Source: a virus
Length of the DNA stretch: 25,220 nt
Reading direction: 5' to 3' (one strand)
Virus record (IMG/VR): IMGVR_UViG_3300020162_000806
Span: 1-25,220 of that record
Both the position numbers and the translations under genes were made by a program. The notes under the pieces were generated by a model that made no database searches, was not told the origin of the DNA, and saw nothing but the letters and a program-made list of their open reading frames with translations. How positions within the stretch are numbered: position 1 is the stretch's first letter; every line of letters begins with the position of its first letter. Shown here in pieces: positions 1,243-23,212 of the stretch.

Positions 1243-4200
1243 TTATTCCAGTCCACCGGTAATCAACTGAGAGTACCAGGTGTTAAAGAGTGGGGTGTGG
1301 GTGTTCAAGAACTTCAGGTCTCGTTCGCCTGTCTTCTCATCGGAGAAGATCAACTTGTTTACCTGTCCAAAACTCTGCATGATCGGAGCAAGAGCACTGT
1401 TTCCTCGCATGTTTGCTCCGGCGGATCCACCAGCAATCTGATCGATGACCGATAGAGCAGACGAGTTATGGGCTCCAAGCCACGGAGACTTGACAGCCCG
1501 CGACACGAAGAATGCGGAAGGATTGTCCTCCCACTCCTGCTCGAGATCCTCTACAGTCTTCTTTCCGGTGATCGTCTCACGGGTTGCCTGATAGATGTTC
1601 TCACCAATCATGACAGCAGCAATGGTTGAAAGCATGGTTGCATAACTTCCGTTGGTTGCAGTCCGATATGCGACGTTGAGAGCGAACGCACGACTGTACG
1701 ACGTGAGGTTGTACACCAGTTTGTGCCAGACGCTACGGGACTCGACGGAGGAGGCAAGACTGGCGGTGGGAACGTGGAAGTTGTGGGCTGCCGTGAGATA
1801 GTCCATGACGGAAGACATTGTCTGGTCATCGACTCGCCCACGCATCATACCCATGCTCCAACATTCCTCCTGACCGGCAAGACCATTCCGAAGATTCCGG
1901 ATGGCGTTGGGAGTCAGAAGTCCCGAGTGGTTCATTTGAAGTGCAACGTCGTACGGGAGACCCGCTTCCGCTGCTGCATTCTTAAACGCGGCTCGAGCCT
2001 GAGGAGTATTCTCGGCAACCGCTCCGATACGCTCAAGAGCGGTGGCAAGACGTTCCATGTTGTCAATGTTGCGGGTGACAAAGCGCTTGGCCTGACGGTC
2101 AGCGACCAATCGAGCGACACCTGAAGCCCACTGCATTCCACCAAGACGCATACCGGTTTCACCGTATGCTTCGGCGGCTGCAACGACAGTACTAGTACCA
2201 CGGCCCATTGGAGTGCCGCCGTTGGTAATGACCTCACGACCCGTCATGGTGTGCCAGACACGTTCCCACGGGGCGATGAATCGCTGTGCCATGGTAGTAC
2301 CGACACTGGAGCCAAACGAGGAATGAGCAAGCGAACTATACTGATCCGTGGCGTGGGCAATGTCTTCCATTGCCGCAAGGTCGTTGGAGTGACGAATGGC
2401 ATGCATGAGATCAAAGATACCACGCATACCACCTCCATATAGACGAGAGGCGGTAACTGCCCTGTTCATCTCCGTTGCAATGCCAGCCATTCCCCAGAAG
2501 GCACCGAACGATCCACGAACCACGCCCGTACTGACACGGAACGCAGGATCGAAGAACTTCGTATTGTTGTACTGGGCTCGACCGGTATTGTAGTGCCACT
2601 TCTGTTCGAGAAGATCGACTCCCTGTTCGTATTCACGCTTGACCTGGCTGTCCAGAATCGTATTAGCGTGAGACCTGAGGGCATCGATAACTTCGTCGAA
2701 ATTAGCACGTTCTCCAAGCATTTCCGTCAACTGTGCATCGAACAGGATCTGGGGAGACCTGATCTCCATGTACAGTTTGTGCTCCTGAACGGGAGAACCG
2801 ATGTAGTACTGACGCACTCGGGGATCCCGATAGACGGCATCCTCGAGCGTACGGGCGGCTGCACTATCGGCTCGAGAGGTAGCCACTCGATATCCGACGC
2901 CAGCCTCGGTAACACCCGAGGTAAGGCGACTAATAGTGTGGACAGCCATCTGGTTGGCGTATTCCTCAATGGCAGGACGGAATGCATTCTGATCGGCAAC
3001 CGACAGGACGTTGTACGCTGTTCCACGTGGAACACCGATGGCGTCTGCGACGGTATCCGGAATGGGTTCTCCAGAAGTCATGATACGATGCGCATAGGCA
3101 TCTCGGAAGTTGCCCTGAGCCTCGTTCATGCGAGCCATGATGGCTCCGCTGTTGGGTTCACGGGGACGGTAGTTGGGACGCACCGTTCCTGCGCCGTGGC
3201 TAACAGCCAGACGCTGACCCGCCTCGTCGTAATGACGACGCATGATCTGGTACATCTCCAGCATACCGGCATTAAGTCCCGTAGTATCTCCACTATCAAG
3301 AGCATCCTGAAGGAGTTGATCCTCATCAGGTCGACCACGATAATGACCGGCATTCCTTGCCCTGACTTCGGCCGAGGTAAGTTCATTGACGGCAAGACGA
3401 CCGCGATCGCGGAAGTTCTGCATCGTACGAACAGCACCGTCGTTAAAGCCAAGCGACTTGACAAGCGCTTCAGGACGATCAAGCATGTTGAACGCCGTCA
3501 CCATCATGTCAAGAACACGGGCAGAGTTGTGGATATCGGCAAAACCAGTACCGGCGGTCTGAAGACTAAAGATTGCACGACCAAGACCCCGAAGGATGGG
3601 AACCTGTCCCATTCTCATCAGGATTTCATTGGTAATGACCAGTCGCTCTCCAGGATTGCTCTTAGACGAAAGTTTCTCGAGAATGCGCTTCTGCTTCTCT
3701 GCCCTCTCGTTTGCTTTGACCTCTTCCTTGGTCGGGGCCTTGGTTCCCTTACCACCAGGGGAGGCTGGCTTAGATCCGGACGCTCCCGACGTTGCCGTAG
3801 GAGCGGACGGAACGGAGACGGTCGGATCCGTAACCGCACTGTTGACGTACGACACGGTCCTAGCCTTGGAAGCACTGCGAGCCTCCGCCGTAGCGGGATC
3901 GGACTCCATGGCCGCTTCCAGCATCTGCTGGTCGCGCATGTCCTTGGCGGCCTTCTTGGTGTTTTCGGTGGCAACACGAACGCCCTTCATGGACGGCATG
4001 TCAGGACGAGTCGGAAGATCTCCAATCACGTCATCGACACCGACCTGAACAGCGATATCCTCAGCCTCGCGAGAGGCAACCGAGAATCGGATGTTACGTC
4101 CGTCCATCGTTGCCGACAGAATGTCCTCGACGGGCCTACCGTCAAGAGTGTCCATCTGTCGTGCAATAAAGAAGTCCTCAAGGGCAGTCCACCGCGGAAG

Positions 4201-7200
4201 TTGGGTAGCATCGCCGTACAGGTTGTACAGACGACGATTCAACTCCTCGGCAAACTCATTCTCACCACGCCTAACGGCGACGGCAATCTGAGCCCTGAGA
4301 CGGGAGATCTCCATCACGTTCTCTACCTTGGGGGCAGCCGAACCAAGTTCGTGGCTACGACGAATCATCGCGGGGCGACCCTCGATGGTGTTCATCTCAC
4401 TAGCAATCTTGGTACGACGCTTCTCAAGATAGGTAATCTCATCCAGGGCATCAACCAAACGAGGATCAGCATCAGTGGCCTTAGCGGCCCTAAGTGCATC
4501 TCGTTCGGCCTGCTTGGCTGCAAGTTCCGCATCAATCAGTTCCGTCTCGCGACGCAGGACGGAATATTCGGTGTTGTTACCGACTTCCGACGCTGCCCTG
4601 CGAGCCTTGTTCCTAATATTGCGACCCTTCTTGGTGGCGAACTCCTCTGGCTTAAGTTCGTTAAGTTTCTTGGCTGCAGTGTTATTTGCTGCAATCTTGA
4701 CAGCAGCACGTTCTGCACGAACGGTGTCGGCGGTAATGATGGCGGTAGGAACGACATCCCTGTTCAGGACATCGACCTGACCGTTAAGTTGCTTGTCAAG
4801 ACGGTCGATCAGATTCTGGGTACGCTTGATGGCGCGCTCGCGCTTGGCGATGGCATCCTTGTAGGCTTCCTGAACCTTGCGACCTGCTCCACCAGCCTTG
4901 GCCTTCTCCGCTGCTTCCTTGAGTTTAGGAAGGTTGTCCGTCATCTGAGTAAGACCACCACGCAGGTTGGTGATCTTCTGATCGAGTGGAAGATCCTTGG
5001 CTCCTGCCCTGATGGCCTCGATTTCCGGGGCAACCTTGGCAAGTTCCGCCGATAGAGCCGCTTCCTGCTCAGCCACAGTCATGCGCTGAATCGGAGTCCT
5101 AGCCTTGTAGACAGGACGCAATGGATTGGTACCGGCCGTCAGATGAGTATCTGCCGACTTGGATCCCAGGAACCTGTCGACAAACTCGACCTTCCAGCGA
5201 TTGGCGGCCTGAGTCTGCTGAATGGCGCCACGACGAACGGCGTTGAAACCGGACTGGGAGAGAGACACCTTCCACAGCGGGAAGGTACCAGATTCCTCCA
5301 TGGTTCGATTAAGAGCATCGGATCCACCCTTAGCCAAGATCTCTCGACGGGTCTTACGGACTTCGTCAAGAGTCTCCGCAAGAGCGGCATCACGTTCCCT
5401 GAACAACCGAGTCGCTTCGTTCAGTTCATCGACGGCGTCGGACAGAGCCGTTGTCATCGCTGGATTGTCATCGATGATATCGGTCGCTGCGGTAAGCACG
5501 GTGGCATTATCCGCATCTGGATCAAGGGCTCGCATGGTGCGAGCACGGGTGGCTTCACCACGACGTGCCGACGCCTGAGCGGCATCCCTGACCTTCTTGA
5601 GGGCGTTGATCATTTCCTTGAAGTGATCAAGACGCTCAAAGCCCTCGTCGTTAAGACGCACAAAGGCGTCGTTAAGTTGATTGATTGCTCCATCGACGGA
5701 TGCAATCATGTTACCAGTGCGGGTAGCCGCTTCGGTATGCATCTCGTTGAGGATGTCGACACCACCCTGGAAACGACCTTGGGTAATGTTGTCGTTGACG
5801 CGGTTCATTGCCTGAACGGCTTCATCAGTAGCCGCGGCGTAGCCACGATCGCTGATCTGCTTGAGAGCCGCATTGACAGCCTTATCCTCTAGGACGCTGA
5901 TGCGCTTGTTGGCATTAATGGCGTTGGCAACGCGGACAACACGGTCCTTGTCACCACGTGCCATCCACTCAGCGACAAGACGAGCATCCCCGCTAGCCCC
6001 CTCGAGATAGTCCACGATGAACCTGTACTGTGCAAAGTCATCGCCCATGTGAGAACGAAGGAGATCCATGGCCTTCTTGCGGAAGAAGTGAGCCTGATCG
6101 CCTCCATTGAGGACGTAGGTCTCGACCTCTCCGGTCCAAGCCGCCACCTGCTCCTGGGTACGCTGGGCAGCGGTAAGACGATCGGAGACGTACTGATTAA
6201 GTTCAGCAGCGTCAGGACGGTTGGTTTCAATCCAATCCGACAGATCGTCCATGTCCTCACGGGTGCCCCAGTGGGCATTGGTACGGGCTTCGTCATCCAT
6301 AAGGACACGACGAAGTTCGGTATCGGGACCGGTAATGGTGTCGAGGCTGCGTTCAAGACGACTCTTGGAGGAGCGCCATGCACTCAGAGCGACTTGATCA
6401 ATGGCGGTACCAAGAGTACCTTCGGCACTATTGGCTGCCATGTTCTCGATAGGAGACAGACCGGAGACGGCGTTATTAGCCTTGTTACCGGCTCGGTTGA
6501 GCAGATCTCCACCAACGGAGAAGCCCAGACCAAGCATGGTACCGAACGCAACATCGTCAGTCCAATTGGTATCGGCCTCGTAGGTCTTGCCATAGATGCG
6601 AAGACCGTCGTCATTCATCTGCTTGAAAGACGAATAGGCAGACGATGCTCCATCCATACCGTCCCACAGGTAAGTGGCGGCCTTATACGTCTTGCCGTAG
6701 TTGGTGGCAAGGCTGGAGATGCGAGCACCGATGGACATGCCGCGAGATACATTGGTACCCGCGGCTGCAGCGGCCGATGCAAGAGATCCTGCTCGGGCTG
6801 CCGTAGCCATACCACCGGTGGCGACAAACGACACCGCGGTGGTGGGATCCGATGCGATGTAGTTGACGATCGCAGAGAACGTCTTGTTGAACCCGTAGGT
6901 CAGGAAGTTGGACTCGGCGTCATAGCGATCGATTTCCAACTCTGCTCGGGCAATGATTTCGATTTCGCTGACTCGCTGAAGGAAATGAGCCTGAGAAACG
7001 GAGTTCTCAATCAGATCCTTCTTCAGTTCCTCTCCACCACGGAAGAGGACCGCTGCGGTCATCTCTTGGGGAAGGACCTTTTCCCACAAGTGGGTGGCCG
7101 CTTCACGATTAAAGTTTGGGTCAGGACGATCCGCAATATTGGGATCCCAACCATACTTCCAGTCAACTAAATTGCGCTGCGGAGTATCCGCGGCACCGAA

Positions 7201-7365
7201 TGCAAACCGACCTGCACCACCAGCGGTGGCAGCATAGGTGGCACGTTCGGCCATGGCACCGAAATTAAACGAACCCCCGAGTCCCCCGCTAAGGAGACTA
7301 GGAGCATTGAAGATTCCACTTTCCTTGTCATACTCAAACGCCTGATTGTAATTAAAAGTACTCAT
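1243..7365 (-). CDS. Giant internal virion / ejection protein (T7 gp16 position), 2040 aa
   Basis: This is the largest gene in the window. By position and architecture it corresponds to T7 gp16, the core protein ejected into the cell envelope to form the DNA conduit, but it is much longer than T7 gp16 (about 1318 residues). Visible parts are: an Ala/Gly-rich N-terminus with a hydrophobic stretch near residues 165-210; a long charged, helical, probably coiled-coil middle (roughly 430-1000); a Pro/Ser/Thr/Lys-rich low-complexity linker near 1170-1220; and a C-terminal block with Trp/Tyr-rich helices, including a hydrophobic segment around YATMLSTIAAVMIGENIY near residue 1920. I do not see the N-terminal lytic transglycosylase motif present in T7 gp16. 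It starts at ATG 7363-7365, 18 bases after the 901-residue gene. The sense codons avoid TTA, CTA and TCA over most of its length, which leaves long open frames on the opposite strand. Confidence 0.85.
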   Translation of the reverse strand: MSTFNYNQAFEYDKESGIFNAPSLLSGGLGGSFNFGAMAERATYAATAGGAGRFAFGAADTPQRNLVDWKYGWDPNIADRPDPNFNREAATHLWEKVLPQEMTAAVLFRGGEELKKDLIENSVSQAHFLQRVSEIEIIARAELEIDRYDAESNFLTYGFNKTFSAIVNYIASDPTTAVSFVATGGMATAARAGSLASAAAAAGTNVSRGMSIGARISSLATNYGKTYKAATYLWDGMDGASSAYSSFKQMNDDGLRIYGKTYEADTNWTDDVAFGTMLGLGFSVGGDLLNRAGNKANNAVSGLSPIENMAANSAEGTLGTAIDQVALSAWRSSKSRLERSLDTITGPDTELRRVLMDDEARTNAHWGTREDMDDLSDWIETNRPDAAELNQYVSDRLTAAQRTQEQVAAWTGEVETYVLNGGDQAHFFRKKAMDLLRSHMGDDFAQYRFIVDYLEGASGDARLVAEWMARGDKDRVVRVANAINANKRISVLEDKAVNAALKQISDRGYAAATDEAVQAMNRVNDNITQGRFQGGVDILNEMHTEAATRTGNMIASVDGAINQLNDAFVRLNDEGFERLDHFKEMINALKKVRDAAQASARRGEATRARTMRALDPDADNATVLTAATDIIDDNPAMTTALSDAVDELNEATRLFRERDAALAETLDEVRKTRREILAKGGSDALNRTMEESGTFPLWKVSLSQSGFNAVRRGAIQQTQAANRWKVEFVDRFLGSKSADTHLTAGTNPLRPVYKARTPIQRMTVAEQEAALSAELAKVAPEIEAIRAGAKDLPLDQKITNLRGGLTQMTDNLPKLKEAAEKAKAGGAGRKVQEAYKDAIAKRERAIKRTQNLIDRLDKQLNGQVDVLNRDVVPTAIITADTVRAERAAVKIAANNTAAKKLNELKPEEFATKKGRNIRNKARRAASEVGNNTEYSVLRRETELIDAELAAKQAERDALRAAKATDADPRLVDALDEITYLEKRRTKIASEMNTIEGRPAMIRRSHELGSAAPKVENVMEISRLRAQIAVAVRRGENEFAEELNRRLYNLYGDATQLPRWTALEDFFIARQMDTLDGRPVEDILSATMDGRNIRFSVASREAEDIAVQVGVDDVIGDLPTRPDMPSMKGVRVATENTKKAAKDMRDQQMLEAAMESDPATAEARSASKARTVSYVNSAVTDPTVSVPSAPTATSGASGSKPASPGGKGTKAPTKEEVKANERAEKQKRILEKLSSKSNPGERLVITNEILMRMGQVPILRGLGRAIFSLQTAGTGFADIHNSARVLDMMVTAFNMLDRPEALVKSLGFNDGAVRTMQNFRDRGRLAVNELTSAEVRARNAGHYRGRPDEDQLLQDALDSGDTTGLNAGMLEMYQIMRRHYDEAGQRLAVSHGAGTVRPNYRPREPNSGAIMARMNEAQGNFRDAYAHRIMTSGEPIPDTVADAIGVPRGTAYNVLSVADQNAFRPAIEEYANQMAVHTISRLTSGVTEAGVGYRVATSRADSAAARTLEDAVYRDPRVRQYYIGSPVQEHKLYMEIRSPQILFDAQLTEMLGERANFDEVIDALRSHANTILDSQVKREYEQGVDLLEQKWHYNTGRAQYNNTKFFDPAFRVSTGVVRGSFGAFWGMAGIATEMNRAVTASRLYGGGMRGIFDLMHAIRHSNDLAAMEDIAHATDQYSSLAHSSFGSSVGTTMAQRFIAPWERVWHTMTGREVITNGGTPMGRGTSTVVAAAEAYGETGMRLGGMQWASGVARLVADRQAKRFVTRNIDNMERLATALERIGAVAENTPQARAAFKNAAAEAGLPYDVALQMNHSGLLTPNAIRNLRNGLAGQEECWSMGMMRGRVDDQTMSSVMDYLTAAHNFHVPTASLASSVESRSVWHKLVYNLTSYSRAFALNVAYRTATNGSYATMLSTIAAVMIGENIYQATRETITGKKTVEDLEQEWEDNPSAFFVSRAVKSPWLGAHNSSALSVIDQIAGGSAGANMRGNSALAPIMQSFGQVNKLIFSDEKTGERDLKFLNTHTPLFNTWYSQLITGGLE

Positions 7366-7383
7366 GGAATTTGCTTTCTGTTG

Positions 7384-10089
7384 TTACTTTACGAATTTTT
7401 CCAGTCGACGCATGGATTCGGCCTGTTCCTTCTTCTCTACATTGGGAAGAACAGTCGTGGTAAACTCGTAGAAATTCTGAGCGTTGGTCTTTACCTTCGA
7501 AGTTGGAATGTGAATCCAACGATTTGCTACCTTGACACGGATGGCTGAATGACCTTCAAGAAGATCCTGATCGTATGGATCAATTTCAACTGCTTGGATC
7601 TCTTCAGGTTTGTAGATACGAGGCATTCCCGTATTGTCAAGTTGCGGCATGGTGGACAAAGCCTGAGCAGCCGCTGGCTTGAGGTGATCCATGTACTTAC
7701 CCCAGGCAGGGGTTTCCATTGCTTCAGGATCAGGAAGAGGAAGATTCCCGTTGTACCCTGGAACGTTTCGATACATTCGGATAGTGGGGGTTCCATCTCG
7801 CGTATAACGATAGAAACCGTAGCCGTCCTGCTTCATCATGTCATGCATAAGCGTGGCTTGATCCGATGCGTTTGGATAGCAAGCAGCAAGAGCGGCATAT
7901 TCAAGAAGAGTTGATTGCTCCGACGGGGAGCGACTATCGAACGCTTCAGAAGCAGACACCTGACCAAAGTCGGTAAACCAACCACTATCGAATGCCGCAT
8001 CTGAACTTAGCCGTGTGATGGCTTCATTGATGTCCTTAAGTCGCTTCTTACCTTCTTCGCTTCCCATATTGGGAGCGCTCCACGCCTTTCGATTTGCAGT
8101 GAACTCAGTGATCATTCCGATGGTTTCATCGGGAGACATTTCCTTATTTCTATCCATGTACCTGAGAGCGGCACCAATAGCGAACGAATCCTTGTATTTG
8201 GGATTGGTAAGCAGTTGGTTTCTGACCGTTGGATCCTTGGCACTGTTCATCACGGTCCAAAAGGCCTTGATGAGCGGATAGTTCTTCGGATTGTCGACAC
8301 CCTCTAGAACAGCCTTTCCAAGGGCAGAAGGAACCGCAACATCACTGTATCCCGACAAGGAATCAATGAGCATCGGAATCAGTTCCGCTTCCTTCAGATT
8401 GACATAAGAACCATCTTCCAGCGCTGCACCAAGAGGAGAAGTCTTCCAACCGGTTTCAGTACTCATGGTCTTGCGACCAGTAGGACTCATGCGACGGGCA
8501 TCGGCCTCATCTCGACGCTGCTGGGCGGCAAACTTTTCGCTGTCCTGGGTGTACTGGTTCGTCATAGAGACGAGCGTCGGTCCCAGAATCTGCTGAAGAG
8601 CGGGACTGGATTCAAAACCCTGTCGGTTAGTACCAAATGTACTAAGGACATGGTCTTGAAATTCCTCAAGAGTGTTGTGAACAGTATTCCATCCGGTTGC
8701 CGCCACATCTCCAGTGGCGGGAGTCTTCTGGATGATTCGACTGCGCTCAAGGGCAAGTTCGTTTGTCTTGCCTATGATCATCTGGTTAAGTTGCTTACCA
8801 GCACGGGATGCTACGGCAGGGTTGTCCGTCTGCGTTAGTCTCCAAGCGCGGTTCATCCTATCCGTTAGATCGCTTCCGTTATCGATGTAAGCGTCGGTGG
8901 TTTCCTTATAGGCTCGGACTTTTTGATCTGAAGTCCATTTAACGCTACTGTCGATCTCATCAAACAGAGTATCGACATCTTCCTGCTTGGTACGCTCAGC
9001 AAGAGACAGAAGATTTCTTTCCTGCTCGCGTCGAATGTTTTCGACGTTTCTTGCTCGAGTAATTGCGTCTACCGCCGGAGTAATCATGGCATCAATCTGG
9101 GCGGTTACAGCATCCTGTTCCTTTTGAGAACCCAATAGAAGCGCTGCGGTAACGTCGGGATTTTCTTCCACAAGTTTGTCGCGAGCCCGCTCAAATAGAG
9201 TCAGCCTAATTGCGTTGTCGCTAACTCCTGTCAAGGAATTGGCCAAGTATTCGGTGTCAGCCATTAATCCATCAAGATACCGTGACAACGTTTGCTTAAC
9301 CGAAGCGGCTGCAAGAGTTGCTGCGGCATTCTCTGATTTCTGATTCTCCGCCTCTTCCCGATTTTGAAGGGTTTCCAGACGGTTGTTGGCTTCGTTTCGC
9401 AGTGACTGATAAGCCGCTGCGGTCTTGGCATCAGGAGCGTCTTCCGCGGCCTTGGCGTAAGTAACCCTGAGTGCCTTGAGACTATCTTGACTGTTGCTCT
9501 CATAAGCAGTCTGGATTGCTCCGGCTGCAAGAGACTTAATGGCGTCTATGGAATCAAAGATCTTCTTGTCTTCTTCGGTTTCAGCAAGACGGGCGGCTGA
9601 CTCGATCTGTCGCTGTTCCGACTGAGACGCCTGGGCCGCTTGTGCTGCTACGGATTTATCCATAGCCGCAGATTCAGGAGTGACGCTACCAAGCGCCTCT
9701 TTCTGAATTGCTTGCTGCTCTTCAACCGTGGTTGCCTTGGCAATACGAAGGTTGTAGTCAGCCAACTTTGCCTTGGCTGCTTCATCTTCCTCGCGCTTCT
9801 GCTTGGCTTCCGCACGATCTGCTTCCCGTTCCGCTCGTTCCTTCTTGAGTTCAATTGCTCGATCAAGATTGATCTTGCCCTCAAGTTCTGCGGTCTGCAT
9901 CTTCAGCATCTGGGAACCGATGTCGGCTCCGATGCCAAGGACCTTCTGCAATACCGCAAAGGGATTTTCTGGCTGCGCCACGTTAGTCTGAGCGACAAAC
10001 CGCGGCGTCTGCAGATTGATATCGGCTGAGCCAAAGCCAGACGGCGAAGGAGCCGCCGGACCGGAGCCTGTCCTGTATTCACGTGGCAT
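7384..10089 (-). CDS. Internal virion / ejection protein (T7 gp15 position), 901 aa
   Basis: The gene lies between a gp14-like and a gp16-like gene and has the size and composition expected for the middle core protein of T7-like virions (T7 gp15 is about 747 residues). These proteins are packed inside the head and ejected with the DNA. The N-terminal 60 residues are Pro/Gly/Gln-rich. They are followed by a highly charged Lys/Glu/Ala helical region (about residues 65-260, for example KLKKERAEREADRAEAK-type sequence), then a mixed helical body with many Asp/Glu. No signal peptide, membrane segment or catalytic motif is obvious. The ATG is preceded by AAGGAA about 7 bases upstream. Codon use differs from the neighbouring giant gene: the codon-aligned opposite strand is interrupted more often, so TTA, CTA and TCA are used here. 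The assignment rests on synteny and composition. Confidence 0.8.
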   Translation of the reverse strand: MPREYRTGSGPAAPSPSGFGSADINLQTPRFVAQTNVAQPENPFAVLQKVLGIGADIGSQMLKMQTAELEGKINLDRAIELKKERAEREADRAEAKQKREEDEAAKAKLADYNLRIAKATTVEEQQAIQKEALGSVTPESAAMDKSVAAQAAQASQSEQRQIESAARLAETEEDKKIFDSIDAIKSLAAGAIQTAYESNSQDSLKALRVTYAKAAEDAPDAKTAAAYQSLRNEANNRLETLQNREEAENQKSENAAATLAAASVKQTLSRYLDGLMADTEYLANSLTGVSDNAIRLTLFERARDKLVEENPDVTAALLLGSQKEQDAVTAQIDAMITPAVDAITRARNVENIRREQERNLLSLAERTKQEDVDTLFDEIDSSVKWTSDQKVRAYKETTDAYIDNGSDLTDRMNRAWRLTQTDNPAVASRAGKQLNQMIIGKTNELALERSRIIQKTPATGDVAATGWNTVHNTLEEFQDHVLSTFGTNRQGFESSPALQQILGPTLVSMTNQYTQDSEKFAAQQRRDEADARRMSPTGRKTMSTETGWKTSPLGAALEDGSYVNLKEAELIPMLIDSLSGYSDVAVPSALGKAVLEGVDNPKNYPLIKAFWTVMNSAKDPTVRNQLLTNPKYKDSFAIGAALRYMDRNKEMSPDETIGMITEFTANRKAWSAPNMGSEEGKKRLKDINEAITRLSSDAAFDSGWFTDFGQVSASEAFDSRSPSEQSTLLEYAALAACYPNASDQATLMHDMMKQDGYGFYRYTRDGTPTIRMYRNVPGYNGNLPLPDPEAMETPAWGKYMDHLKPAAAQALSTMPQLDNTGMPRIYKPEEIQAVEIDPYDQDLLEGHSAIRVKVANRWIHIPTSKVKTNAQNFYEFTTTVLPNVEKKEQAESMRRLEKFVK

Positions 10090-13421: not shown

Positions 13422-13811
13422 TCAGAAGAGACGAACGATCTTGACGGCCTGATTAGTACCGAACGTACCGTTGGCCGTAATGGAAATCGTGGTTCCAGAC
13501 TTGGTAACCTTGGCCTGATTTGAGGTGGAAGTACCACCGCTGTTAACCAGGTTAACACCGCTATAAACGTCCACAGTAGTCGTGGAAGCCGAGTAAGCAA
13601 TGGCAATTCCAAAGACCTGAGCCGCGGCGTTGTTGATAAACACAACATAAGCAGCGGGATAGGCTTCAGTTTCTACGTTAAACGAAACAACTCCGTTTGC
13701 AGAAATGGTTGTCTGGATGTCGTCGCTATTTGCGTTGGCAGCCCTACCAATTGCGGTGGGCGTTACAATAGTCGACGTAGGGTTGACGGTTTTGGCGGGA
13801 TCAATAGGCAT
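13422..13811 (-). CDS. Small structural-looking protein, likely paralogue of its upstream neighbour, 129 aa
   Basis: I do not recognise a named family. The protein is almost free of charged clusters and rich in Thr, Ser, Ala, Asn and Val, as in small beta-sandwich virion proteins. It starts MPIDPAKTVNPTST and ends ISITANGTFGTNQAVKIVRLF (read as two overlapping parts). The neighbour starts MPINGNATINPFST and ends LTLTANSTWTARDIVVTRIG. The shared opening and closing patterns suggest a tandem duplication. The ATG is preceded by GAGGT six bases upstream, 8 bases after the neighbour's stop. Because the gene follows the capsid gene closely and lies between two terminators, a capsid decoration or head-fibre role is a reasonable inference, but nothing in the sequence proves it. 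Confidence 0.75.
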   Translation of the reverse strand: MPIDPAKTVNPTSTIVTPTAIGRAANANSDDIQTTISANGVVSFNVETEAYPAAYVVFINNAAAQVFGIAIAYSASTTTVDVYSGVNLVNSGGTSTSNQAKVTKSGTTISITANGTFGTNQAVKIVRLF

Positions 13812-13819
13812 GTGTTACC

Positions 13820-14191
13820 TCAACCAATTCGAGTGACGACAATATCACGCGCGGTCCACGTGCTGTTGGCAGTCAGGGTAAGGATGCTGCTGGCTACAGC
13901 CGGAACAAGAACGTTAGCGCCGGCAGTGGTGGAGAGGTTGGCCGTTGCTGCGCTGACAATCAAGTTACCAGCCGCAGTGACAGTCACAAAACCAACCGGC
14001 TGAAGCGAGGTGCCCGTTCCAGCAACAGAAAAGATCGCGGGAAAGTTTTCGATCTTTGGAAGAGTGCAGACACCGCTAGCGGCGAGGGCCTTAAAGACAT
14101 ACGAATTTGAATCCCCGTAGTCACGCGTACCGGGACCAAAAGCCGCGGCAGTAGAAAACGGATTGATAGTGGCATTTCCGTTGATAGGCAT
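13820..14191 (-). CDS. Small structural-looking protein, tandem paralogue, 123 aa
   Basis: Unnamed family. The sequence is Ala/Thr/Val/Ser-rich and beta-type, with no membrane segment or catalytic motif. It shares an N-terminal pattern (MPI, then N-P-x-ST) and a C-terminal pattern (T-hydrophobic-TAN-x-T, then a basic-hydrophobic end) with the 129-residue protein encoded directly downstream. The ATG follows AAAGGG at a good ribosome-site distance, just after the terminator that closes the capsid gene. Its place next to the capsid gene fits a highly expressed decoration, head-spike or head-fibre protein; this is inferred from context only. Confidence 0.76.
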   Translation of the reverse strand: MPINGNATINPFSTAAAFGPGTRDYGDSNSYVFKALAASGVCTLPKIENFPAIFSVAGTGTSLQPVGFVTVTAAGNLIVSAATANLSTTAGANVLVPAVASSILTLTANSTWTARDIVVTRIG

Positions 14192-16007: not shown

Positions 16008-16767
16008 TCTTGAGTACTCCTGATGCGCGGACGCGATCCTGTACGTGTGCCTGATACTCGCTGTCGAACTTGTATCGGGGATCTCGCATTGCCGCAACCA
16101 TTTCCTTAGAAGAAGCAAACGGCTTGATGCCAGCGGGAACTCCAGACACGGCATTGACGCGGGTCTTGGGCTCGGTGTTGGTTGCAGCCCGACGCGCCTT
16201 GAGCCCAAGGATCACGTTCTGCCAGCCCGGCTGACGCAGTGCTGCGTTGACAGCATTGCGCTCGGCTTCATCGAGGTTGTCAGCAGCCCACTGGATGGTG
16301 GCCTGAAGTTCCTCGGTGCCTCCGACGATCTTGCTGGCCTCCTCGGCCAACTGGCGCTGCTTCAGACGAATGCCATCGACATAGGCGTCCACAACCTGAT
16401 CGGGAATACCGAACTTGCTGCGGATGGCTTCCTTGGTCTCGGGAGAGACGGCACCGGTGGCTGAGATCTCCTGACCCCAGTTGTTCCACTCGTCCTCGGT
16501 CGGCTTGGTCTCTACCTTCTTCTCGGGGATGGTCAGGTTGTTGGGAGCCTTGGCCTGGGGCGGTTCCTCGGCTGCCTGAGGAGGCGCTTCCTGCTTCTTG
16601 CCCGCCTGTTGAAGGCGGGTGATCTCGGCGCGCATGTCCTTCCAAGACTTGATGAACTTGTCAGGGTCTCCGCCATACTGCGGCGGAAGATTGTTTGGAT
16701 TGCTGCGGGCGAAGTTCTCGACCTGCTGCAGTTCACTATCCACTTCGGGGGTTTCGTTTTCGCTCAT
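16000..16767 (-). CDS. Capsid assembly scaffolding protein (T7 gp9-like), 255 aa
   Basis: The protein is acidic and Gln/Glu/Pro-rich, with an N-terminal helical part containing LPPQYGGDPDKFIKSWKDMR (residues about 27-46), a Pro/Ala/Lys-rich linker (about 57-90), a central helical part, and a basic C-terminus (KFDSEYQAHVQDRVRASG). This matches podovirus scaffolding proteins, which direct shell assembly and then leave the head. The gene lies between portal and capsid, as T7 gene 9 does. Its ATG overlaps the portal stop as ATGA (16764-16767), so the two are probably translationally coupled. The length is somewhat below T7 gp9 (about 307). Confidence 0.9.
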   Translation of the reverse strand: MSENETPEVDSELQQVENFARSNPNNLPPQYGGDPDKFIKSWKDMRAEITRLQQAGKKQEAPPQAAEEPPQAKAPNNLTIPEKKVETKPTEDEWNNWGQEISATGAVSPETKEAIRSKFGIPDQVVDAYVDGIRLKQRQLAEEASKIVGGTEELQATIQWAADNLDEAERNAVNAALRQPGWQNVILGLKARRAATNTEPKTRVNAVSGVPAGIKPFASSKEMVAAMRDPRYKFDSEYQAHVQDRVRASGVLKNG

Positions 16768-18320
16768 TGTGCCTGTTGTCCTTGCATTGCAGCCGACGCT
16801 CCGGTCTCAGCCATCGCGCCCATGCTGCTGATCATCTGCTCAGAGGCCATAGCCTGAATAGACTGCTGTGCCTGCTGCTGCTGCTCTTCCTGAAGTTGCT
16901 GCGGAGTCTTGACGAGACCGACCGGCTCGAGGCCGAACGACGACGTCCACTTGATGGCCCATCCGTACCAGTCGATGTACGGCTGAACGGCTTCCATCTG
17001 ACCAACGACACCGGCCCACTGGGACAGTTGTCCGTTGGTGACCTCGCGATTGAGGGCTTCGAGACCGGTGCGAACCTTGAGGTTCAGTGGGCCTTCGCCT
17101 TCGATCAACTTGATGATTTCCTTGGGAACAAGTTTGTCTCGTCCCATCAGGACAAGGACGCGCTTGACGATCGGAATCTGGATGTCGCGGGCGAGGCCGC
17201 TGAAGATTCCACCAAGGGTCTGGTCAAGTTCCTGAGCAACCTCGCGGATCTCGGTGGCGGTGACACGGTCACCGGCACGCTGAACAGACGACTGAAGAAG
17301 GAAGGTTCGACCAAGTTGCTGGGTCAGGTCGCTGCGGAGAGCGGCCATGGGCCCAAGATCGATCTGCTTGAGAAGTTGGATCGGGAAGACGTCGGCCTGA
17401 CGGGCAGGGACGAAGTCTCCGTTCTCGGTATCCTGAAGGTCCGACACCTCGGTGATGCCCGTGGGGTCGACACCGATGCGGAACTCGGAGTTGGCGACAG
17501 CCGCCTCGACAAGGGCCTTGGTGATGGCCTCGAGGGTACGGATGTCTCCGATGTGCTCCTCGACCAGCGAGCGACCGTAGTCCTCACCGGCAATGCGAGA
17601 CCACACTTGGGGAACATAGGGACAGACATCGTAGGAACCACTGTCGACCATGACGCCGCAGTATTCCTTCTCGACCTCCCACTTGCCTGACTCCTCATCC
17701 CACTCGATCTCGGTGTAGAAGGGCTTGTGATCCTCGGTGGGACCGGTACCCTCGTACTCCTCGTCCATGTCGACGTCCTTCGGCCAATCCTCGGGAACGG
17801 CGTCGGGATCGACCCACTCGCGCAGGATGATGCGCTTGACGCGACCATCGGGATAGCGCTGAACGACGTACTGATCGATGCGATGAACGCGGAACTGGTA
17901 CTCGTCGACGATCTCGAAGAGAGCGTCACCGCAGATGATCAGGTGCTGGAAGAGGACGAACAACTCCTGACGGAGATTGGTCGAACTCAACTTGTCCATG
18001 ATCTTGCGGTCAAGACGGGACAACTGCGACATGGTCTCGGTCGGGTCCGCGCCCTGAGGGACGAAGGCTTGATCGAGTTCGAAGTTGAAGAAGGGGGCTT
18101 GGTTCAGTGGATAGATGGCACTGACCATTCGGGATGCCAGAGCCATCACGCCACGGGCGGGAAGACTGCTGTAGACATCCGGAAGTTCCATGGTCTCGGT
18201 GAACCCATCTTCAGGGTACAGACCGGGAACCGTGAGGCGAGCACAATCCTGAGCACGCTGAAGTTTGTTGCTTCGACGGCTGTCAAGACGCTCAAATTCA
18301 ATTTGAATCTCACCTTGCAT
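16764..18320 (-). CDS. Portal / head-tail connector protein (T7 gp8-like), 518 aa
   Basis: This protein forms the 12-fold ring through which DNA is packaged and ejected. Length is close to T7 gp8 (536). Family features include the N-terminal segment with LPDVYSSLPARGVMALASRM (residues about 46-65), the crown and clip region with ICGDALFEIVDEYQFRVHRI, the segment WSRIAGEDYGRSLVEEHIGD, and the QRAGDRVTATEIREVAQELD segment. The C-terminus is a Gln-rich tail. The start at 18318-18320 has GAGGA seven bases upstream and overlaps the preceding stop as TAATG. The 3' end overlaps the scaffold start by 4 bases. The codon-aligned opposite strand is nearly free of stops, which reflects rare TTA, CTA and TCA use. 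Confidence 0.95.
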   Translation of the reverse strand: MQGEIQIEFERLDSRRSNKLQRAQDCARLTVPGLYPEDGFTETMELPDVYSSLPARGVMALASRMVSAIYPLNQAPFFNFELDQAFVPQGADPTETMSQLSRLDRKIMDKLSSTNLRQELFVLFQHLIICGDALFEIVDEYQFRVHRIDQYVVQRYPDGRVKRIILREWVDPDAVPEDWPKDVDMDEEYEGTGPTEDHKPFYTEIEWDEESGKWEVEKEYCGVMVDSGSYDVCPYVPQVWSRIAGEDYGRSLVEEHIGDIRTLEAITKALVEAAVANSEFRIGVDPTGITEVSDLQDTENGDFVPARQADVFPIQLLKQIDLGPMAALRSDLTQQLGRTFLLQSSVQRAGDRVTATEIREVAQELDQTLGGIFSGLARDIQIPIVKRVLVLMGRDKLVPKEIIKLIEGEGPLNLKVRTGLEALNREVTNGQLSQWAGVVGQMEAVQPYIDWYGWAIKWTSSFGLEPVGLVKTPQQLQEEQQQQAQQSIQAMASEQMISSMGAMAETGASAAMQGQQAQ

Positions 18321-20317
18321 TATGGGGTCCTCATTTGTGCATCAATGCAGTTTACATACCAATCATCAGTACCCCACACAGGTGCCGGACCGGTTGCTCC
18401 GGGCGGCTTTGCTGACATGTTCAAAGTTGCGTGGATGTTGCCCAACCAGTCTTCCCAATTAAATAGGATTAGTCCTGAACCGCCTGCATCGTATCCTCTG
18501 ATGTTGACATCAAAGAATGCCTTAGTGGCAGGCGTCCAATAACCCAAAGAGTACGTTGCTGGGTTTGCCTGAAACGTAGCAAGATTCCACGTTGTTGGCA
18601 TGAAATTAACATTTCCATGGTACCAGACGTATCGAGCCTGTGTGCTGTTCTTGTTTGCGGGACCTGGAACGGCGTCTGCAAAATGATTGAAGGGCATCAA
18701 CTGACCACATAGTGCGTAGGTGTCTACAAAGTATGTGGCAATCGACTTGAAGATTCTCCGCTCTTTCCACTTTCTCGTCTTGTCGCCCCGTCGCATAAAC
18801 GTATCCTGCAGCAGATCGGCAATGATGTACAGATGCTGCATGGCGTAGTGGGGACTGTAGACAGTCGCGTGACCAGGAGATGGGTTCAGGAATAGATCTC
18901 GGACGGATGCTCCATTGAATACCTTGCTTCGGTATCCATACCTTACCTTGTCTTCGTTTGCAAGAAAAGATCCTTGCAGAAGAACAGTGTGCGGTAGATT
19001 CTGAGACGAGATGAATGGAAACGCGGGATCCGGATTTAGGCTCGGCTCAACGGTAAGCATCCAAGCGGCGTCTCCAGCGCTGGGTCCCCAATAGTTATAA
19101 AGAGGACGGTCGGCGGTGGGACTGGTGGTTCCAAACGGAGACTGCTCATCAGTTACCTGAGCCTCGTCTGAATACGGCACCGCTCGAGACTCACATCGAA
19201 CTTGAATACCAGCACTTTCAATTGCCGTTGCAACATAGTAGTCGGCAAGTTCGCAGAAATCGGAGATGTAGGACTGAGCGGCCCGGTCTCCGTTGGCCGG
19301 AGGATCATCGAGCGTACGCCACAGTTTAAGGTTGTGAGGAGACGCCGAAAGAGAGGAGACATCGAAAATGCAGGTCAGAATTCCCTTGTTCGGCGCGGGC
19401 TTCATCGAAACCACGCGAGCAATGAACCGATCGAGCAGGGACTTTACCGCTGCGTCTCCAGCCGCTCCGCCACCCGCTCCGTTGTAGACGGCAAACAGTT
19501 CGTCGCGATAGGTCTTATATGAACAGCAGCCATTGAAATAAATGGTGATGTCCACAGGATCGGTAAACTGAGGTCTGGTCGCGGGATCAACGGCGGTTGG
19601 AGCCGGGAAGGTTCCATCCAACAATTGCTTGGTGGCTTCCCAGAAACCCTTCCAACGTGCAGGAGACTGCCAGTAGTTTCCAGATGCTGGCTGTGTAAAC
19701 GTATCTTCCTGCTGAATTGGCGAGCAAAGCCAAATTCCGGTTGTGGGTCCATACGCTCCAAACGGCATGTAAAGCAGAAACGAACGGACTCCGTACCTGT
19801 AATCCTCTACAAGATGCTCGTACAGAATGTTGTGCCACGGGGAGGTGGCAAACGCTCCAGTGAGGTTTGTCGGGTCGGCGTTCCATTGAGTACTGAAGTT
19901 AACGGAAGTAGGATTGATATTGGCACCAAACGCTCGGGCGCCCTGCCAACCCTGTCCAGTTCCCACAATCGGCTGACCGACGTAGAAAGAAATCGTGCTA
20001 GGGGACCAACCATCCCAATTCGGTTCTGCTCCGCTGGGATTGGAGATGTACTTGATGACACCAAAACGCCGATTCAGATCGGTGGCTCTCTTTACGGCGG
20101 TTTCGTTGGTCCACGTGATTGCATCGAGGGCCTGATTCTTAGGACCCCCACGACCAGCAATGGAGTCAAGAATTTCCTGCGCCCCGGCGTAGGTCTTGTA
20201 CTTACCTGCAAATCTGTTGTTGATCTTCAGAATAAAATGACCACCCGCGGCAATGATCTTGGCTGACCTTATTCCAATGTTGGCGAACACGCTGCCAAGT
20301 GTTTTATAGTGATTCAT
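18320..20317 (-). CDS. Large protein of unknown function upstream of the portal, possibly a virion-associated hydrolase, 665 aa
   Basis: I do not recognise the family. The sequence is aromatic-rich (many Trp and Tyr). It shows alternating beta and helix segments that could form a barrel: GVRSFLLYMPFG (about 176-187), DPVDITIYFNG, ILTCIFDVSS, IQVRCESRAVPYSDE and later AWMLTVEPSL. Several strands end in Asp or Glu, as in glycoside-hydrolase barrels, so a sugar-cleaving or virion-associated enzyme is possible. This is an inference from pattern, not a match. There is no signal peptide or membrane segment. The start ATG overlaps the upstream stop as TAATG, with GAGGT six bases before. T7 has no gene of this size here, between the 7.3 position and the portal. 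Its codon use includes TTA, CTA and TCA more freely than the portal, a hint of separate origin. Confidence 0.82.
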   Translation of the reverse strand: MNHYKTLGSVFANIGIRSAKIIAAGGHFILKINNRFAGKYKTYAGAQEILDSIAGRGGPKNQALDAITWTNETAVKRATDLNRRFGVIKYISNPSGAEPNWDGWSPSTISFYVGQPIVGTGQGWQGARAFGANINPTSVNFSTQWNADPTNLTGAFATSPWHNILYEHLVEDYRYGVRSFLLYMPFGAYGPTTGIWLCSPIQQEDTFTQPASGNYWQSPARWKGFWEATKQLLDGTFPAPTAVDPATRPQFTDPVDITIYFNGCCSYKTYRDELFAVYNGAGGGAAGDAAVKSLLDRFIARVVSMKPAPNKGILTCIFDVSSLSASPHNLKLWRTLDDPPANGDRAAQSYISDFCELADYYVATAIESAGIQVRCESRAVPYSDEAQVTDEQSPFGTTSPTADRPLYNYWGPSAGDAAWMLTVEPSLNPDPAFPFISSQNLPHTVLLQGSFLANEDKVRYGYRSKVFNGASVRDLFLNPSPGHATVYSPHYAMQHLYIIADLLQDTFMRRGDKTRKWKERRIFKSIATYFVDTYALCGQLMPFNHFADAVPGPANKNSTQARYVWYHGNVNFMPTTWNLATFQANPATYSLGYWTPATKAFFDVNIRGYDAGGSGLILFNWEDWLGNIHATLNMSAKPPGATGPAPVWGTDDWYVNCIDAQMRTP

Positions 20318-20721
20318 TAATTACCTCGAGGGGTGGTCTTCCGAGACTGGCGACTCCAGTACTTGCCCTGATCTGCAGGGTTGTTGCTGGTCATGCTCGG
20401 GATGTTGAGGGTCGGGATTGGCGCAAGACCAAGATTGGGGGCCTGGAACCAACTGAGATCCTGACCAGCGAATTTGGTTGGATCGAAGGTGGGGTCGAAC
20501 TTCTGGGGGATGTAGATCCCAGCGTTGTTCATTGGGATGAAGTCGGCCTGTTCGAATGAACTCCGCTCGCCGCTGAGACGATCACGGGTCAGGGCCTCGT
20601 AGGCACCGGCACGTTCGATGAACTGACGCTTCTCTCCTTCGAACCTGACGCGCTCTTCCTCGAGTTGCGCTTCGGTCTTGATCTGTGCATCCGACTTGGC
20701 TTTAGGTGTGCTCGGTCCCAT
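20317..20721 (-). CDS. Small virion-type protein at the T7 gene 7.3 position, 134 aa
   Basis: The N-terminal half (residues about 10-55) is charged and helical, rich in Glu, Arg and Gln, and probably a coiled coil. The C-terminal half is Pro/Asn/Phe-rich and likely extended (for example FIPMNNAGIYIPQKFDP). No family is recognised. The gene overlaps its upstream neighbour by 20 bases, and its stop overlaps the start of the 665-residue gene as TAATG. In T7 a small tail protein gene (7.3) lies at the same place, two positions from the portal. The sequence is not clearly related, so only the position is shared. Confidence 0.8.
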   Translation of the reverse strand: MGPSTPKAKSDAQIKTEAQLEEERVRFEGEKRQFIERAGAYEALTRDRLSGERSSFEQADFIPMNNAGIYIPQKFDPTFDPTKFAGQDLSWFQAPNLGLAPIPTLNIPSMTSNNPADQGKYWSRQSRKTTPRGN

Positions 20722-20887
20722 GGCGCTTCTGCCTTTCGTGAATTGCCTTCAGGTGCTCGACCACGGAGTGTTGACCTGACTTGAAGTCAATCTCGCGGAG
20801 GTCGATGCCACGGGTGTCGGTCACAGGGATGAATGTCTTCTGAAGCCAGAGGATCAGTTCTGGGGTGATGTTGGGGATGTCCTTCAT
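20702..20887 (-). CDS. Small phage protein, 61 aa
   Basis: The protein starts MKDIPNITPELILWLQKTF and ends with a helical basic tail around SGQHSVVEHLKAIHERQKR. The pattern of a short helix opening with TPEL-x-x-WL, then an aromatic-free linker and a final helix, resembles small conserved proteins encoded just before the portal in many T7-like podoviruses; I recall the pattern but cannot name a family. The ATG overlaps the previous stop as ATGA and is preceded by AAAGGG, a good ribosome site. The real-gene case rests on this coupling, sensible composition and the overlap with the next gene. Confidence 0.75.
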   Translation of the reverse strand: MKDIPNITPELILWLQKTFIPVTDTRGIDLREIDFKSGQHSVVEHLKAIHERQKRHGTEHT

Positions 20888-21357
20888 TGGACCCTTTCGA
20901 TGCCGTACAGACCCTCAAGGAGGGACAGTTGGCTGTGAAGACCGGGAGCCGTGGTGGCGGTCACCGGAATGTTGCAGGAGGACAGGATCATGGAGATGGT
21001 CCCGACACAGGAGATACGATGTGGACGCCATGACCACAGGCCATGGTCGGCACCGTAGTGGGGCCATTCGGTAAGGAACAACCTCAACCTGCTGTCGACT
21101 ACCCATCCCTCTCCCAGCATGGCGATCATCGACGGTGAACCCAGTGACAGGTCGACATGCCAGGAAGAGTGGATGTATGGGGTGATCACCTTATGGGCAG
21201 CCTCATAGGGTCGCCAAGATGATGCCTCCCCCTCTGGGAGAGTCAGGTAGTGAGGGCCCATTTTAAGACCCAGATGGACCGCACGAAAGCCCGTTAGTAC
21301 TCCAGAAGAGATACTTAAGGGGTCCTTTAGATCCATAAAGTCTATTCTAGATGTCAT
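20884..21357 (-). CDS. Hypothetical protein behind twin palindromes, 157 aa
   Basis: No family is recognised. The protein is rich in Leu, Ser, His and Trp. It includes PYIHSSWHVDLSLG (about residues 59-72), an acidic-aromatic middle, and a segment ISCVGTISMILSSC followed by a short helix near the C-terminus. His and Cys residues at these places could be catalytic in a cysteine-enzyme fold, but that is speculation. The ATG at 21355-21357 lacks a clear ribosome site and lies inside a palindrome. An alternative start at Met8 (ATG 21334-21336) cannot be excluded. The gene is the first after the fibre-like gene and starts a set coupled by ATGA overlaps that runs to the portal, so it may begin a new transcript. 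Confidence 0.68.
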   Translation of the reverse strand: MTSRIDFMDLKDPLSISSGVLTGFRAVHLGLKMGPHYLTLPEGEASSWRPYEAAHKVITPYIHSSWHVDLSLGSPSMIAMLGEGWVVDSRLRLFLTEWPHYGADHGLWSWRPHRISCVGTISMILSSCNIPVTATTAPGLHSQLSLLEGLYGIERVQ

Positions 21358-21404: not shown

Positions 21405-22580
21405 TCAACCGATGACCGCTACGGCACCAGAACCAATCTGGGCGGTTACGGCTGATGCAGCCACCTCAGACCTAAATTCAACCGTAACAGTGGTGTTTAC
21501 GTTACTTGCTTGGTTCCAGACAATTGCTTCAATACGGGCTGCGTTATTACCGGCAGTAGTTGCGGTACCGAGTATTTCAAAGAATGAAGACGCTCCAGCG
21601 GCGACATTAAACGTGTTACCGCTAGAAAGACCTGTAGCCGCTGCAGCGCTGCTGAGATTGACGTAAGCAACGGCAGAGCCTGTTGCATTAGCCGTTGCGG
21701 TTGCTGCTTGAGCAACTCTAACCCCAAGAGCACCACCGGTAGCGGTTGCGGCTGCTGTAAAGATCAGGTTGGCTACCAACGTCATTGTTTGACCCGGTGT
21801 CAGGGTAAAAGTACAGCCAGTTAGAACAGCAGGTGTGACGGTGCTGTTAGCCTGAGTGGCTGTCAAGATGGATTTAGCAATAGTGACGCTTCCGCTGCCT
21901 CCTGATGGAGTAGCCCATGTCTGATTACCGCACAGAAATGTAGTAGCATTGGCTGTACCAGAACCAAGACGGGCCGTTGCTATCGTTCCCGAAGTAATAT
22001 CCGTGGCTGCATGGGTGTGAACTGTGGCTGCTTTTCCAGCGAGATCAGTTACAAGATTTGTGATATCGGCTTGCGGATGGGTATGGGTAAGTGGCGTACG
22101 GGCATCGCTAAGACGACTGTCGTTTCCAATACATACGGTACTAGAAGTCGTACCTGTTGGAATGCGCCCAATGTTAAACGCACCCGAGGTAACATCACCG
22201 GCTGAGTGAGTATGAGCGGTCGCCGCCTTGCCCGCAAGGTCGGTAACCAGATTGGTTACATCGGATTGGGAGTGGGTATGTACCGAGGCTGCTTTTCCAG
22301 CAAGATCAGTTACAAGATTTGTGACGTCCGTCTGGGGATGCGTGTGTGCCGTAGGAGTACGGGCATCGCTAAGACGGCTGTCGTTACCAACACATGCGGT
22401 GGTTCCGGTAGTACCAAAGGACACATTTAGAGTTCCAGTGGTAGTAATAGGACCTCCGGACAGGCCCGTACCGGAATTAACCTGAGTTACGGTACCACTA
22501 CTACCACCACCAGAGGCTGCAACAACCTTCTTGGCAATCTTTTCGATCTGACTCTGCTCGATGCGGTCAAACTGACTCAT
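21405..22580 (-). CDS. Second fibre-like protein with HTH-motif repeats, 391 aa
   Basis: The start is placed at ATG 22578-22580, which overlaps the kinase stop as ATGA and has GGAG nearby; the frame continues 8 codons upstream but into the kinase gene. After a short helical N-terminus and a Gly/Ser linker comes VTQVNSGTGLSGGPITTTGT, a common phage fibre motif. A repeat region follows (about residues 65-215) with NDSRLSDARTP, HTH and DVTNLVTDLAGKAA units, then a Thr/Ala-rich beta domain to the C-terminus, probably a knob. His-x-His repeats of this kind bind metal in some trimeric fibres. It lacks the T7 N-terminal attachment domain of the main fibre. The role is probably a secondary receptor-binding or head/tail decoration fibre. 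Its position directly after a nucleotide kinase gene is unusual. Confidence 0.85.
   Translation of the reverse strand: MSQFDRIEQSQIEKIAKKVVAASGGGSSGTVTQVNSGTGLSGGPITTTGTLNVSFGTTGTTACVGNDSRLSDARTPTAHTHPQTDVTNLVTDLAGKAASVHTHSQSDVTNLVTDLAGKAATAHTHSAGDVTSGAFNIGRIPTGTTSSTVCIGNDSRLSDARTPLTHTHPQADITNLVTDLAGKAATVHTHAATDITSGTIATARLGSGTANATTFLCGNQTWATPSGGSGSVTIAKSILTATQANSTVTPAVLTGCTFTLTPGQTMTLVANLIFTAAATATGGALGVRVAQAATATANATGSAVAYVNLSSAAAATGLSSGNTFNVAAGASSFFEILGTATTAGNNAARIEAIVWNQASNVNTTVTVEFRSEVAASAVTAQIGSGAVAVIG
22026..22328 (-). repeat. Intragenic fibre repeats: 42-base units and a 261-base period
   Basis: The peptide DVTNLVTDLAGKAA, or a one-residue variant, is encoded at 22287-22328, 22221-22262 and 22026-22067. 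The first and third copies differ at only 3 of 42 bases and lie 261 bases apart, and flanking NDSRLSDARTP-coding DNA repeats at the same distance (22100 and 22361). The middle copy encodes an identical peptide to the first but differs at 12 of 14 third codon positions. Confidence 0.92.
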
Positions 22581-23212
22581 GAGAATGTCTCCACGTCGAT
22601 CCAAGCCGGAGCAAGGGCCTCGACAATTTTCTTGAACTCTTCCTCGGACCTGTCGTTCTTGACGTAGAAGTCAAAGATCTCGTCTGGAATCGATCCAAAC
22701 GTATACAGCATTGCAAGTTTCTCCGACTCATGCCGGCGCCAATCGGCGTCAAGATCATTGAGCCTGAGCGCTCCGTCAACAAAGACGGTCGTTCCATTCA
22801 GGGCTTGGACCATTTCAAGTTCATTCATGTACCGCATGTCGTCAAAGATGATGACAGTCTCCCTGAACTCGTTATTCCAGGAGAAACGATCCATGCGAGC
22901 ATAATTGGTCTGCTCGTCAATCTGAATCTCGGCAAGTTCTAGAAGAACTCGGTGGACCCAGTAGTCAGGCCCAGTAATGCCTGGCTTGTAGTCGGGATTG
23001 CGACGGGACTCGCCCCACCGCTGCAGCGTCTTGCGATACAGTTCAGGCTGGGTGTCTTTGTCAAGACCGATGCGCTTGGCTGCTCGCTTCATTGGCTGAG
23101 CGAACGAATACAGCATGGGATTCATACCATGATCCATGCACCACTTGTACATGAACTGCGCTGCCGTCGTCTTGCCACCACGGGCAAGTCCTGCAAATCC
23201 AATTACGTGCAT
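22577..23212 (-). CDS. Deoxynucleoside monophosphate kinase-like P-loop protein, 211 aa
   Basis: The start at ATG 23210-23212 is chosen because GGAGG lies four bases upstream and the ATG overlaps the thyX stop as TGATG; an in-frame codon 24 bases upstream lies inside thyX. The protein begins MHVIGFAGLARGGKTTAAQF, with a Walker A loop at residues 8-15 for ATP phosphate binding. FDDMRYMNE at 123-131 matches the conserved D-x-R-x-x-NE segment common in phage dNMP kinases of the T4 gp1/T5 type. These enzymes convert dNMPs to dNDPs in the cytoplasm. The substrate range cannot be read. Gene context with ThyX (which makes dTMP) and DNA polymerase supports a dNTP-supply role. The 3' end overlaps the fibre-like gene by four bases. 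Confidence 0.85.
   Translation of the reverse strand: MHVIGFAGLARGGKTTAAQFMYKWCMDHGMNPMLYSFAQPMKRAAKRIGLDKDTQPELYRKTLQRWGESRRNPDYKPGITGPDYWVHRVLLELAEIQIDEQTNYARMDRFSWNNEFRETVIIFDDMRYMNELEMVQALNGTTVFVDGALRLNDLDADWRRHESEKLAMLYTFGSIPDEIFDFYVKNDRSEEEFKKIVEALAPAWIDVETFS

Follow-up and report, generated by a model that had tools for sequence, protein, structure and literature searches.

Most of the phage depolymerases described are β-helical (PMC5380687). In DepoScope, TIM barrels were found in 10 of 984 polysaccharide-degrading cases, about 1% (PMC11326577), and tail fibres or spikes with a TIM barrel (a transglycosidase domain) are known from Acinetobacter phages with depolymerase activity (PMC11823257). 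Phage T7 carries two small virion proteins, gp6.7 and gp7.3 (PMC11784390). In this paper we looked at a 665 amino acid protein, P0001, which is encoded in the record of a T7-like podovirus (IMGVR_UViG_3300020162_000806; the whole stretch that was analyzed, 25,220 bases, is referred to as the window). Its gene lies directly before the portal gene, and in T7 the genes of gp6.7 and gp7.3 also lie just upstream of the portal gene.

The order of the portal, scaffold, capsid, tail tube and nozzle genes in the window is of the T7 type (PF12236, PF05396, PF21703, PF17212, and PF25675). The minus strand carries the late genes: DNA polymerase, a ThyX-like and a nucleotide-kinase-like gene (both assigned by inspection) and the tail-repeat gene come first, then small genes, the 665-aa gene and the portal, and after these the scaffold, capsid, tail tube and nozzle genes, those of the internal virion proteins, and the beginning of a fibre gene (Table 1). 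The 134-aa gene upstream of the 665-aa gene, which we call the 7.3 position, has no family match. The tail-repeat gene keeps a short N-terminus (~MSxFDRIEQxEIxxIAKK) in five related contigs (L012, L019, L021, L022, and L026), whilst its body differs; in L012 and L026 it apparently has a shorter form that is followed by two extra genes. This suggests a second variable, appendage-like slot. Two small adjacent minus-strand genes after the capsid gene (13422-13811 and 13820-14191) encode proteins with similar N-termini (MPIxxxxTxNPxST); neither was matched in PHROGs and they are possibly paralogous decoration proteins.

Table 1. Features of the 665-aa gene and its surroundings (window coordinates).
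Feature	Position	Strand	Evidence or remark
3' end of the 665-aa gene, ATGAGGACCCCATAATG	18318..18334	-	Contains GAGG, similar to a ribosome-binding motif, and the TAATG restart of the portal gene
Portal (head-tail connector)	16764..18320	-	PF12236/phrog_449
665-aa protein P0001 (subject of this study)	18320..20317	-	ORF calling, homologues, models
Predicted conserved α/β core, aa 86-376	19190..20062	-	Predicted secondary structure; invariant residues
N-terminal segment, aa 1-80	20078..20317	-	Alignment; common to podophage members
Small 134-aa gene, 7.3 position	20317..20721	-	Upstream of the 665-aa gene; conserved in relatives
157-aa gene	20884..21357	-	Its L005 counterpart is immediately followed by the inserted homologue of the 665-aa gene
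Phage-tail-repeat protein	21405..22604	-	PF12789; variable and appendage-like, lies in the same segment

The 665-codon frame is uninterrupted on the minus strand, as found by ORF calling, whilst the plus strand over the same positions contains numerous stops. Tight coupling to the portal gene, which the first-pass annotation had pointed out, was confirmed: the stop of the 665-aa gene overlaps the portal ATG by one nucleotide (CATAATGCAAGG, TAATG), and the upstream 134-aa gene likewise shares one nucleotide of its stop with the 665-aa start codon (AATTAATGAATC, TAATG). In a scan of 2.9 million viral contigs, relatives were found in six contigs beyond the window's own record, giving four distinct proteins overall that are 27-48% identical. 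One contig, a second IMG/VR record from a metagenome accession (L002), carries the same gene with one synonymous and no other difference over 1998 nt. Two others (L003 and L004) do not differ across the gene and are 35% identical to the window protein in the best segment. A further two (L005 and L006) are one codon apart over their shared 298 codons and 42-48% identical to the window protein, and the most distant relative, from a T4-like phage (L007), is 27% identical over aa 101-607. The diverged homologues retain a full-length frame, with 627-672 aa in other lineages. Because of the near-identical second copy and these homologues, an assembly chimera or artefact and a chance ORF were both ruled out, and the 665-aa ORF is confirmed as a genuine gene.

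Neither the protein nor its homologues match a family in PHROGs, Pfam or NCBIfam. No glycoside hydrolase (GH) profile of Pfam or NCBIfam was matched by any of them, and PF13204 specifically was absent; a search of the PDB sequences with the protein and two profiles also gave nothing credible, and for these reasons we place the protein under no GH family. The same was found when the protein, two homologues and a consensus were run by tblastn against 50,697 phage records. A scan of 84,980 species genomes, one per species, gave zero relatives; like the contig scan it is pattern-based, so that very distant relatives could escape both. A hand-made FxFxFPFGG pattern hit 59 other stretches in the viral contigs and none of these had a profile match. 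The profile search for relatives that had been advised gave nothing in the family libraries, but the contigs yielded the four distinct viral proteins, and by these searches the family is new and rare.

A comparison of close genomes shows where the gene is missing. By a portal-based scan, 22 contigs were collected, and the nearest relatives of the window, with portals 93-95% identical, do not have the 665-aa gene, which agrees with the earlier suggestion of a recently gained (or lost) module. In nine relatives (L016, L012, L017, L019, L021, L022, L023, L026, and L028) the portal comes directly after the 7.3-position gene, and the stretches examined contain no homologue. In L016, whose portal and tail tube are each 95% and whose scaffold is 89% identical to those of the window, the two flanks of the empty site align with window DNA at 79% and 86%. 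In L005 (the same as L015) the homologue is present one slot further upstream, flanked by the 157-aa-type gene and a 64-aa gene; on its right-hand side the DNA matches L026, a contig that has no homologue, at 92% identity, and so do the first 283 bases of the left-hand gene. This adjoining 177-aa gene (1011-1544) has a C-terminal half unlike its L026 counterpart, which, together with the identity of its first part, suggests a recombination break inside the gene. In L003 the homologue takes the same slot as in the window, but has short spacers.

On a portal tree three changes are needed to explain the pattern of presence and absence; these may be gains or losses, between which the tree does not distinguish, and its inner nodes are weakly supported. 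The homologues are only 35-48% identical where the portals are 90-93% identical. Judged from these comparisons, the 665-aa gene is an optional insertion, and its patchy presence together with its fast divergence would be as expected of host-interaction genes. The 3' end ATGAGGACYCCRTAATG is common to the window and L005, nearly the same in both despite the different downstream gene, and the cassette may come with a ribosome-binding motif and a restart of its own for the gene that follows. One possible option is that the gene is a selfish element, a free-standing gene of the homing-endonuclease type with its insertion point close to the conserved portal gene. The two insertion points, the sporadic presence and a sub-threshold NUMOD1 match at the N-terminus of L003 (E 0.0011, 19.6 bits, cut-off 22.8) point in that direction. 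Yet a nuclease domain was matched in no member, NUMOD1 was unmatched in the window protein and in L005, and 630-670 aa is large for such genes; we consider this option very improbable.

Codon use had also been brought forward in favour of a recent gain, on the ground that the gene uses codons that the portal gene largely avoids. The difference from the portal is there (GC3 of 0.536 vs 0.711; mean log codon score of -1.168 vs -0.938), but it is not specific to the 665-aa gene, because other variable genes are as atypical or nearly so: the scores are -1.315 for the tail-repeat gene, -1.332 for the 157-aa gene, -1.171 for a 123-aa gene and -1.149 for an internal-virion gene. Among the homologues, the GC content is near that of the own portal in L005 (0.62 vs 0.64) and below it in L003 (0.45 vs 0.52). 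As several phage genes are equally atypical, the argument for recent gain or loss comes from the empty sites and not from the codons.

The T4-like relative places the same domain in another genome type. The L007 capsid protein is of the gp23 type and about 55-56% identical to the capsids of Synechococcus, Pelagibacter and Methylophilales phages. It is followed by genes for a 1363-aa protein, a 732-aa protein, a tail-tube-like protein (a weak match) and a UvsW-like helicase (assigned by inspection). The N-terminal part of the 1363-aa protein holds the domain of the 665-aa protein, fused to a further ~590 aa. In the phages Melnitz-3, Sf-FS3 and Mosig a short gene, annotated as tail tube in Mosig, comes directly after the capsid gene, and UvsY and UvsW or a similar protein come after it, so that two genes appear to have been inserted beside the head gene of L007. 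The C-terminal half of the 1363-aa protein (3786-5567) contains RILFDNESI and EFFGFYNDEFGDP; it was unmatched in Pfam and the PDB sequences and is possibly a second enzyme domain. The 732-aa protein (5575-7773) has the motif HTHRDAGQISV...LMDSG, which we take to resemble heparinase II/III-type lyases; as Pfam, NCBIfam, PHROGs and the PDB all gave no match, we keep this as a lead only, which would fit a glycan-directed role of the adjoining domain.

Two AlphaFold models were made from five-row alignments, one led by the window protein (mean pLDDT 38.8) and one by the L005 core (mean pLDDT 41.1). In both, strands alternate with helices over about aa 86-376 in window numbering, with 5-6 strands; the predicted strands are 86-92, 179-183, 256-261, 314-319, and 372-376, with helices between them. 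The core block reaches a pLDDT of up to 87 in the L005-led model. The models stop short of the last strands that a barrel would have, most of the protein outside the core is below pLDDT 50, and the C-terminal part (377-665) is poorly modeled. A parallel β-helix tailspike seems less likely, since the core of these low-confidence models is α/β. By VIA-align, nearly all matches of both models are TIM barrels, mostly glycoside hydrolases; the GH5-type structure 3kzs leads both lists (rmsd 5.2 over 149 residues in one and 4.5 over 156 in the other), and 4qfu, GH6, GH20, PgaB and Cwp19 are also listed. The best Z of 6.2 should be read against the 7-8 typical of models that lack a clear match, and according to the tool Z below 8 is common when a model is unmatched. 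In Foldseek, neither model against the PDB, nor one of them against a viral library, gave a match at E <= 0.001. The barrel that the first-pass annotation had proposed is thus favoured by the strand-helix alternation and the TIM-barrel matches, but not by model confidence or by Foldseek. The advised structure prediction gave no barrel in a good model, and it gave neither a confident match to a non-enzymatic family nor a high-confidence model free of a barrel. Based on the models, a TIM-barrel fold of the core is fairly likely.

The four proteins share 68 invariant residues, 48 of which are in aa 151-400, and 11 of the 68 are acidic. D319 and E376 are invariant down to 27% identity and end, or directly follow, successive predicted strands in both models, in line with the strands ending in Asp or Glu that had been noticed at first. 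We suggest them as the best candidates for a catalytic carboxylate pair. The protein had also been called aromatic-rich, and its W, Y and F make up 13.5% of residues, the highest value among the 18 window genes tabulated, with 13.4-13.5% across all three podophage proteins. A high aromatic content is usual for sugar-binding clefts. It would also suit a non-enzymatic protein that serves in adsorption or decorates the head, neck or tail, i.e., a glycan-binding module without catalysis, as would the fast divergence and the position in the structural block close to the variable tail-repeat gene. However, phage adhesins are usually mostly-β, and here we find strand-helix alternation with invariant acids at strand ends; in our judgement the invariant set of W, H, N, R, D and E also resembles an active site. 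A purely binding function is therefore quite unlikely.

Another hypothesis is an auxiliary metabolic (moron) gene, whose product would be a TIM-barrel enzyme that acts on an intracellular host metabolite and is not packaged. TIM barrels are common metabolic folds, the weak structural matches include old yellow enzymes, UROD and radical-SAM proteins, and the presence/absence pattern would fit as well. Yet there are zero metabolic family matches in the libraries, and auxiliary genes usually have cellular relatives, whereas the pattern-based scan of the 84,980 species found none. The gene also overlaps its neighbours in the structural block at both ends, and the T4-like relative sits between capsid and tail-tube-like genes. 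We regard a metabolic role as unlikely.

The reading that we prefer, and hold tentatively at somewhat below an even chance, is a horizontally exchanged, optional cassette that encodes a glycan-active barrel enzyme, probably packaged or released with the progeny. By horizontal exchange the cassette would have reached the block of late, structural genes in a T7-like podovirus. The encoded (β/α)-barrel enzyme would act on a glycan, most likely a host surface or extracellular polysaccharide, which would be cut by a pair of carboxylates, D319 and E376 being the best candidates. Carried on the virion, or released with it, the enzyme would help the particle through the host's sugar layers. The protein is probably virion-associated, judging from its genomic position, and packaging of a product encoded upstream of the portal is plausible because T7 gp6.7 and gp7.3 belong to the virion. 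The N-terminal segment (to about aa 80) is specific to the podophages, with no convincing alignment to the T4-like member, and may be a docking segment. We infer, on weak support, the glycosidase chemistry, the substrate and the attachment to the virion through these N-terminal 80 residues. That the protein stands for a new stand-alone barrel-glycosidase family without detectable relatives in cellular genomes or isolated phages, on a cassette that enters beside the head genes of unrelated T7-like and T4-like phages and, in two podophage lineages, has its own restart site for any gene that follows, seems to us rather doubtful. The probability beyond the preferred reading and the three alternatives belongs to functions that are not listed here. 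The first-pass reading as a whole is partly supported: the module and the strand-end acids held up, and the codon argument proved weaker than stated.

If the preferred reading is true, the portal-adjacent slot, where this gene lies instead of in the fibre gene, would be another place in which to seek host-interaction enzymes in environmental phages. A stand-alone family of this kind escapes the family libraries, and the close genome pairs with and without the 665-aa gene offer a natural comparison. Among known systems, T7 gp6.7 and gp7.3 share the position upstream of the portal; they are small and no resemblance to the 665-aa protein was noted, their positional counterpart being the 134-aa neighbour. 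The barrel glycosidases (the GH5-type 3kzs and 4qfu, GH6, GH20, Cwp19, and PgaB) are like the model in the likely barrel topology and are its top structural neighbours, but with about 10% identity, a weak Z and no Pfam match. The β-helix virion-associated depolymerases (PMC5380687) have the same proposed role, whereas here the predicted core is α/β and the gene is not a tailspike gene. The TIM-barrel phage depolymerases are alike in both the proposed fold and the glycan-degrading role, but they are domains of fibres or spikes, whilst the 665-aa protein is encoded by a stand-alone gene beside the portal and has no family match. Since such fibres and spikes are known in Acinetobacter phages, the proposed role is of a known kind; these examples cover neither the protein family nor a stand-alone gene of this type located next to the portal.
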